Shown here piece after piece: positions 374 through 46,340 of a DNA stretch of 57,999 bases. The stretch's first letter is position 1. Every line of letters begins with the position of its first letter. The DNA comes from Deltaproteobacteria bacterium. GTDB lineage: Bacteria > Desulfobacterota > Binatia > UTPRO1. A program made the translations under genes and the position numbers. The notes beneath the pieces were generated by a model. It was not told where the DNA came from. It worked only from the letters and a program-made list of their open reading frames with translations, and did not search any database. The DNA lies in NCBI GenBank assembly GCA_029262315.1, contig JAJCZP010000054.1:1-57999 (forward strand), given 5' to 3'.

Positions 374-450
374 GCGGGAGCCGGCGCAAACCGCGCTTTG
401 CGCCGGTGACGCCCATCGGAGCACGTGCGCCCCGCGCACGCGCGCACGGG
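374..450 (-). repeat. Two-hairpin dispersed element, copy 1
   Basis: Read on the minus strand, hairpin A is a 7-bp stem with a 3-nt loop (424-430 pairs with 434-440). It is followed by the linker GTGCTCCGATGGGCGTC (424-408), then hairpin B, a 10-bp stem with the 6-nt loop GCGCGG (406-397 pairs with 390-381). The linker and the B loop are identical to the copy at 31.2 kb, while the stem bases differ. It lies between the divergent mtgA and efpL genes. Function unknown. Confidence 0.75.
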
Positions 451-501
451 GGCTAAATGTGCTGGATGACTTTCGGCGTCGAACGGGGTAGAGCACCCTT
501 C

Positions 502-31148: not shown

Positions 31149-31220
31149 CCGTGGAACCCTGAGGGAGTCTCTAGGATCCAGGGTGATATGCGTGATGTCA
31201 ATCATTTATATTTCGCCCCC

Positions 31221-31290
31221 GTGCGCGCGGCCGCGGAGCGGCCGTGCTCCGATGGGCGTCGCCCCGCAAAGCGCGGTTTGCGGGGCTCCC
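31221..31290 (+). repeat. Two-hairpin dispersed element, copy 2
   Basis: Hairpin A is a 7-bp stem with a 3-nt loop (31228-31234 with 31238-31244). The linker GTGCTCCGATGGGCGTC (31244-31260) is identical to copy 1. Hairpin B is a 9-bp stem (31262-31270 with 31277-31285) with the identical loop GCGCGG. Stem sequences differ from copy 1 but stay paired. It lies between the upstream end of the beta-helix gene and the end of the hydrolase gene. Confidence 0.75.
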
Positions 31291-31355
31291 GCTGGGAGGA
31301 GCGGCGGGTGGGGTGGGGGGTGCTGTCGGCGTTGCGTAGGGCGGGGCGTTTGGGG

Positions 31356-45414: not shown

Positions 45415-46287
45415 ATGGGGAGACTGAAAGATCGTCTCGTTGGCTGGACGGTGGCTCTTGCGGTGGTGTTTCCGCTGACCGTCGCCAATGCGCAGGACCG
45501 TGGTATCCAGCTGAGTCTCGACGGGACGCGGGTCCTGGTCAACAAGGACGTTGGCGAGGATCGCTGGGGTATCGCCCTCAACACGCTATCGCAGACCATT
45601 ACCGGCAACGTCTTTCCGGGCAGTGGCGGTGAGCCTATCTTCATCTTCTGCGAGCCCGAGGGTCTGGTGAATACCTGGAGTTGCCGCGGCTCCGGGCCGT
45701 GTGTGACGGCGACGTGCACCAGTCAGTACACGGATTTCGGCGTCGTGACCCTCCCGGCGGACTTCTTTTCGCCGCCCGGCTTCAACGATCAGTTCGCGGT
45801 GCCTTCGACGGCGCCCCCGGCGCGCGCGGCAAATGGTGCCGCGACCAACGGGTTTCAGGAGACGCCCGACGGCATGCACGTCCTGGTCAGCAAGGACATC
45901 AACGGCGAGCGGTGGGCGATCACGCTGAATCGCGATGATCGGACGCTCACCGGCAACGTCTTCTTTCCGGAAGGCGGCGACCCCGCGTTCGTCTCGTGTG
46001 GGCAGGATCTCGGTGGCTCGGATTCGTTCCGGTGCTCCGGGGCTGGACCGTGCGTGACCGACGGCTGCATGGATCAGTATAACCTGATCGGGACGGTCGC
46101 CCTGCCGGACGGTTTCTTCGGTCCGAGCACGTGTGGCAACTTCAAGGTTGAAGCGAGCGAGCGTTGCGAAGCCGATACGGCGTGCGTCTTGCTTTGTGGC
46201 GTCGATGTCGTGTGCGGACCCACGCCGATTCCATTACCCGGCCTGTGTTCCGACGACTGCTCAACCTGTCGGACTCTCAATTTCTAG
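45415..46287 (+). CDS. Secreted protein with two tandem ~85-residue Cys-containing repeats
   Basis: 290 residues from ATG 45415 with GAGGAGGGG upstream. Signal peptide about 1-27 (cut after VANA). Two repeats follow: first DGTRVLVNKDVGEDRWGIAL ... TITGNVF ... GPCVTATC ... VTLPADFF; second DGMHVLVSKDINGERWAITL ... TLTGNVF ... GPCVTDGC ... VALPDGFF. Each keeps the same Cys, Trp and Gly-Asn-Val positions. The C-terminus has closely spaced cysteines (CSDDCSTC). No known domain recognised. Confidence 0.82.
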   Translation: MGRLKDRLVGWTVALAVVFPLTVANAQDRGIQLSLDGTRVLVNKDVGEDRWGIALNTLSQTITGNVFPGSGGEPIFIFCEPEGLVNTWSCRGSGPCVTATCTSQYTDFGVVTLPADFFSPPGFNDQFAVPSTAPPARAANGAATNGFQETPDGMHVLVSKDINGERWAITLNRDDRTLTGNVFFPEGGDPAFVSCGQDLGGSDSFRCSGAGPCVTDGCMDQYNLIGTVALPDGFFGPSTCGNFKVEASERCEADTACVLLCGVDVVCGPTPIPLPGLCSDDCSTCRTLNF

Positions 46288-46296
46288 TGCCCCTGT

Positions 46297-46340
46297 GAGC
46301 ACAGGCGCATTGCGCCTGTGCTCCGATCGACGCTGCGCCC
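46297..46340 (+). repeat. Degenerate copy 3 of the dispersed element, probably also a terminator
   Basis: A perfect 13-bp stem with a single-base centre (46297-46309 with 46311-46323) runs into GTGCTCCGAT (46318-46327), identical to the first ten bases of the linker in copies 1 and 2. The second hairpin is missing. It lies ten bases past the secreted-protein stop, between converging genes. Confidence 0.55.

Follow-up and report, generated by a model that had tools for sequence, protein, structure and literature searches.

A two-hairpin intergenic repeat, probably of the REP kind, confined to a few related uncultured bacteria

Why should a constant linker between two hairpins recur in intergenic DNA of one contig, when the bases of the hairpin stems differ from copy to copy? 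The question is raised by the window, i.e., the whole stretch of 57,999 nucleotides analyzed here (Deltaproteobacteria bacterium, contig JAJCZP010000054.1), in which a preliminary description had placed two copies and a shortened third, and had offered a REP-like element, a protein site or an RNA as explanations. Exact matching agrees with it that the linker is 17/17 identical in copies 1 and 2, and that its first 10 bases recur, on the plus strand, in copy 3. In the window alone such recurrence is unremarkable, as two linker matches with at most three mismatches were obtained in 25 of 100 shuffles. The whole genome (G000; 5.92 Mb in 298 contigs) holds 22 exact linkers and 44 with up to two mismatches, compared to 2 for the reversed pattern, and the element is thus dispersed, as had been supposed; many of these matches lie in tandem, spaced 69-111 bases. 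The three sites had been located correctly, although the units of copies 1 and 2, with the left arm, are longer than described, and copy 3, formerly placed at 46297-46340, has other limits (Table 1). Copy 3 does belong to the family, in a decayed state: hairpin B is missing, a 13-bp perfect hairpin is found at 46297-46323, and the E-value against the whole genome is 2.6e-4.

Table 1. Positions of the element and its parts in the window (R1, R2 and R3 are the models used in the searches)
Feature	Position	Strand	Evidence
Copy 1, whole unit (left arm, domain A, hairpin B, CTCC)	about 377..465	-	R2 95.8 bits (374-455), R3 32.5 bits (377-465)
Copy 1, domain A, long bulged hairpin, linker GGGC paired to GCCC	411..453	-	fold and pair counts
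Copy 1, constant stretch GTGCTCCGATGGGCGTC (3' arm of domain A and GTC ahead of hairpin B)	408..424	-	exact match
Copy 1, hairpin B CCGGCGCAAA-GCGCGG-TTTGCGCCGG	381..406	-	sequence and fold
Copy 1, right-end motif CTCC (GGAG on plus strand)	377..380	-	sequence; nearly all copies end the unit in CTCC
Copy 2, whole unit	31203..31289	+	R2 92.9 bits (31213-31292), R3 46.5 bits, E 6.7e-10
Copy 2, AT-rich left arm CATTTATATTTC	31203..31214	+	R3 alignment; left-flank profile, 51 sites
Copy 2, domain A, bulged hairpin	31215..31257	+	fold
Copy 2, constant stretch GTGCTCCGATGGGCGTC	31244..31260	+	exact match
Copy 2, hairpin B GCCCCGCAAA-GCGCGG-TTTGCGGGGC	31261..31286	+	sequence and fold
Copy 3, decayed, domain A only; begins at the stop codon of the ORF ending at 46287	46287..46336	+	R1 39.8 bits

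Reading along the linker strand, a unit of 60-90 bases comprises, in this order: (i) an AT-rich left arm similar to ATTGATTTC; (ii) the stretch GCCCCCG; (iii) a variable tip; (iv) CGATGGGC; (v) GTC; (vi) hairpin B; and (vii) CTCC. The stretch described as a linker between hairpins is indeed constant, but it is largely one arm of hairpin A: the constant 5' arm GCCCCCG pairs with the 3' half of this stretch, making hairpin A one long bulged stem, in which G3-C6 pair with G42-C45 (numbering of the 50-nt copies), small conserved mismatches separate the next pairs, and the variable tip closes in a short loop. Accordingly, the 7-bp stem reported for hairpin A folds as claimed, but represents no more than the tip of a ~18-pair stem, with GCCCC(C)G closing with CGATGGGC. 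The RNA fold and the single-stranded DNA fold of the unit are the same. Hairpin B is a free stem of ~10 pairs in most copies; its GCGCGG loop in copies 1 and 2 was recovered from sequence and fold, and loop type is largely genome-specific (gcgcgg or aaa in G000, gtgaa in G001, gcgcga in G003, tcac in G031). Hairpin B almost never occurs without domain A, and its status as an independent repeat was ruled out, since nearly all of its copies adjoin domain A. There are two subfamilies, with a long and a short form of hairpin A; the short form, seen at orthologous sites of G001, reads GCCCCCGCTCG-CTGCG-CTCGCGATGGGCGTC, and its left arm ATTGATTTC is itself conserved. Tandem units abut exactly, with no spacer (G001, contig C75, 38378-38443/38444-38514; contig C85, 53535-53600/53601-53671), and contig C155 of G000 contains an array of five 72-base units. 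Many units of G031 (L162-L172) have an additional hairpin at their left side, which often follows TTGA(C/G)AG; such units have three hairpins and span ~100 bases.

The search of the whole genome and its relatives yielded dozens of copies in both. A covariance model of domain A (E<=0.001) detected 30 copies in G000 and 16, 12 and 16 in three relatives. The first model, R1, was rejected as a full census: orthologous sites of G001 carry a short-form domain A that R1 misses, and model R3 was therefore built. With the model of the short form including hairpin B, the numbers of copies were 81 in G001, 19 in G000 and 19 in G003. The outer pattern GCCCCCGN{12,40}GATGGGCGTCG gave 51 matches in G001, 23 in G000, 11 in G003 and 10 in G031, and none in the reversed controls of these four genomes; the rest of the class contributed five isolated matches: the ones in G024 and G088 are genuine members, and the remaining three are unlike the element. 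Domain A (E<=1e-4) is present in 9 of the 148 genomes searched in the class; it is abundant in three genomes of one family and one of another, occurs as single copies in the others, and is absent from G004 and G005, which belong to the same family as copy-rich genomes. A long-form scan of 84,980 species genomes, a set that may leave out the window's own genome, returned only two deltaproteobacterial MAGs, identified as G001 and G003 by shared matches. R3 detected no copies in a sample of the phylum outside the class, under strict filters that recovered just 10 of 19 of its own copies. Spread via phages was considered and rejected: viral contigs gave 64 pattern matches, which is the chance level, none above 27.4 bits. 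Within these searches, the family is restricted to one lineage, a few related uncultured bacteria.

The stems stay paired in the other copies, with changes on both sides. In an alignment of 80 copies of domain A, 95.3% of cells are paired, 12 of 18 pairs changed on both sides, and there are 82 both-side cells compared to 18.5 in shuffles, none of 500 shuffles reaching the observed number. For the second model (75 copies), the corresponding values are 96.0% of cells paired, 13 of 20 pairs changed on both sides, and 175 both-side cells versus 49.8 in shuffles, again with none of 500 shuffles as high; these 175 cells exceed the one-side-changed or unpaired cells. It should be noted that both alignments were fitted to models, so that the counts lean toward structure; earlier MAFFT alignments agree, and sliding the pairing partners abolishes the signal in both sets. 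The covariation from which structural selection had been proposed is therefore strong, but it need not mean selection on RNA. If each copy were a transcribed structure at the 3' end of an RNA (a terminator, a stabilizer or a ribosome-stalling hairpin) selected on the mRNA of the upstream gene, an alternative that we regard as possible but doubtful, selection on linker-strand RNA would favor G-U among single-arm changes. We found the opposite in the variable stems: the ratio of A-C to G-U on the linker strand is 8:0 in the tip of domain A and 18:6 in hairpin B, counted by column irrespective of the relatedness of copies. This therefore speaks against selection on the linker-strand RNA.

A 487-base end of another contig of G000 (C22, L188) is 91% identical to the start of the window (positions 1-487), which would most simply be a strain variant in the assembly; the two ends are a useful allelic pair for the element. 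The C22 copy differs from copy 1 by four compensated pairs (three in hairpin B and one in hairpin A), and one further change leaves a G-U on the linker strand. We infer from these comparisons that pairing may be kept at the DNA level, through a need for single-stranded DNA to fold or through templating of one arm by the other, a process known as quasi-palindrome correction. Arm-templated correction or copying of DNA hairpins would explain the covariation at least as well as selection on RNA; the family also shows that strongly covarying stems are not enough to prove that a bacterial repeat is a functional RNA.

Comparison of orthologous sites shows filled and empty states. Site L151 is filled in G003, versus an intergenic stretch of ~12 bases in G001; in G001, an element (L131) lies within an operon, between sucC and sucD, ~9 bases before the start of sucD, whereas the two genes overlap in G003; and an element of G001 beside a promoter (L139) has as its counterpart in G003 the same promoter without the element. 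Remnants of the element were found at L142 and L155/L201. Thus, units were inserted or lost as a whole. By eye, the left flank is not repeated after CTCC, i.e., no target-site duplication was seen. Other sites are occupied in both sister species, usually by different subtypes (L145/L136, L152/L138, L148, L149, L154), so that, as far as the aligned sites indicate, the subtype of the element changes at some sites that remain occupied. Such shared occupancy could also mean functional retention, and it counts in favor of the RNA alternative, although the overall distribution, patchy and insertional, counts against it. A further possibility is that a RAYT-free hairpin element repeatedly overwrites older copies at the same sites, the hairpins being copied in or corrected by a single-strand DNA process; it is suggested because orthologous 3' ends differ in subtype and near-identical alleles differ in several compensated pairs, and we consider it rather improbable.

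Placement of the copies is polar. In 24 of 56 units (tandem repeats and G031 excluded), the GCCCCC of the left end lies -1 to 17 nt from a codirectional stop codon, compared to 4.9% for random placements in the same intergenic stretches (binomial 4e-17), while the right end does so in 1 of 56; this background is crude, genes having been called by codon composition with a simple method in the DNA surrounding the copies. For the short-form units of G001 and G003, the numbers are 20/56 for the left end and 8/56 for the right end. The left-end contacts with stop codons favor the RNA alternative, as do the inverted pairs within single intergenic regions of G001 (C15, 41035(+)/41157(-); C64, 73268(+)/73372(-)). 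So does the 3' end of lon, where G003 (L211) has an unrelated GC-rich hairpin without a U-tract in the place of the element of G001, which suggests that hairpins there may matter. Conversely, many copies adjoin promoters or run antisense to their neighbors, which counts against the RNA alternative. A rho-independent terminator was rejected, as copy 2 has no U-tract and, in most copies, CTCC is followed by mixed DNA. Next to DUF1329 genes of G000, G001 (two genes) and G003 (L138, L152, L189, L271), the element stands right after the stop codon. Names such as sucC/sucD and lon were read from translations by eye and are presumed identities.

In other copies, TGTCAA, the reverse of the -35 box TTGACA, lies just left of GCCCCC, which puts the left end beside a divergent -35 box. 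This position directly upstream of a -35 box, together with the invariant core, could point to a protein-binding DNA site or a regulator operator that spread with its regulon. We consider this very unlikely: the neighboring genes are mostly unrelated to each other, both hairpins are kept though their sequences change freely, and in G003 the L139 promoter is present although the element is not. At L139/L212, the sister genome has no element but conserves both the -35 TTGACA and a TATAAG box; that part of the AT-rich flank therefore belongs to the host.

No mobilizing enzyme was found beside the copies. Among 18 genomes searched for Y1 proteins (PF01797), G003 and G031 lack RAYT-type Y1 genes, although both have 12-16 copies; G001 contains only frame-broken pieces; and G000 encodes four proteins with weak, sub-threshold scores against the NCBI REP-transposase model, with no element copies within the stretches of the four genes. 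These four proteins (L031-L034) share a conserved N-terminal PRWGGRR-GAGRK motif, and the L031 gene adjoins an unrelated 103-base tandem repeat of 5 copies. A RAYT as the mobilizer in present-day genomes was rejected, because its presence does not follow copy number and no RAYT is flanked by copies. The same two observations, and the lack of GTAG, make it unlikely that the family is a classical REP/BIME system whose RAYT transposase is extinct or distant, even though its anatomy is REP-like, GGAG precedes each hairpin on the opposite strand, and G001 has broken Y1 fragments.

Taken together, the copies probably constitute a lineage-restricted family of REP-like, non-autonomous palindromic elements, which was also the best of the three explanations offered at the outset. 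We favor this interpretation because of the many intergenic copies, the covariation, the exact head-to-tail arrays, the filled and empty sites, and the polar placement. The copies are short, palindromic, intergenic, numerous and dispersed, with subfamilies that have alternative complementary stem bases, as REPs in the broad sense do; we regard the family as a new form of REP, in which each unit has two hairpins and an invariant bulged base (GCCCCCG...CGATGGGC). The unit would spread as DNA that folds on itself when single-stranded, and an enzyme acting in trans, recognizing the invariant base, would copy or move it. The variable arms would stay complementary either because one arm templates the other in replication or copying, or because selection maintains foldability; copies would persist at the edges of transcription units, where harm is least. 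In E. coli, ribosomes stall at REPs that lie within 15 nt of a stop codon (PMC12306157). As the least certain step, copies that follow a stop codon by no more than ~15 nt probably have an additional effect on the mRNA 3' end, like E. coli REPs, and an effect of such copies on translation or mRNA ends is plausible.

Among known systems, no RNA family was matched, no Rfam covariance model scoring above its gathering threshold. Like MITEs, the copies are non-autonomous dispersed units with defined ends; unlike MITEs, their stems diverge with compensation rather than remaining near-identical terminal repeats, and no parent IS was found. With the GTAG REPs and BIMEs associated with RAYT (TnpA-REP), they share bulged hairpins, alternative complementary stem bases and tandem clusters, and each hairpin likewise follows GGAG on the opposite strand. 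However, there is no GTAG at the foot of the palindrome, the constant motifs being GGGCGTC and CTCC (GGAG on the other strand), and no RAYT is flanked by the copies or tracks them. The CGTC REPs (PMC3733652) are also short palindromes with many intergenic copies, usually near gene 3' ends, with CGTC directly 5' of the hairpin (here, GGGCGTC followed by hairpin B in nearly all copies), a short unpaired tail after it and no dedicated transposase. The differences are that (i) the stem of hairpin B has ~10 bp and is GC-first, whereas that of CGTC REPs has 8-9 bp with AT in the first two pairs; (ii) the tail is CTCC, not CCA; (iii) every unit carries the extra conserved bulged hairpin A; and (iv) head-to-tail arrays are common, whereas CGTC REPs form head-to-head dimers and head-to-tail ones are negligible (PMC3733652). 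How REP-like repeats free of RAYT spread, CGTC REPs among them, was stated as an open question (Di Nocera et al. 2013, PMC3733652). The present family bears on it by offering defined ends, filled and empty sites, and subtype replacement at shared sites, and the genomes that carry its copies are a small set in which a mobilizing enzyme can be sought.
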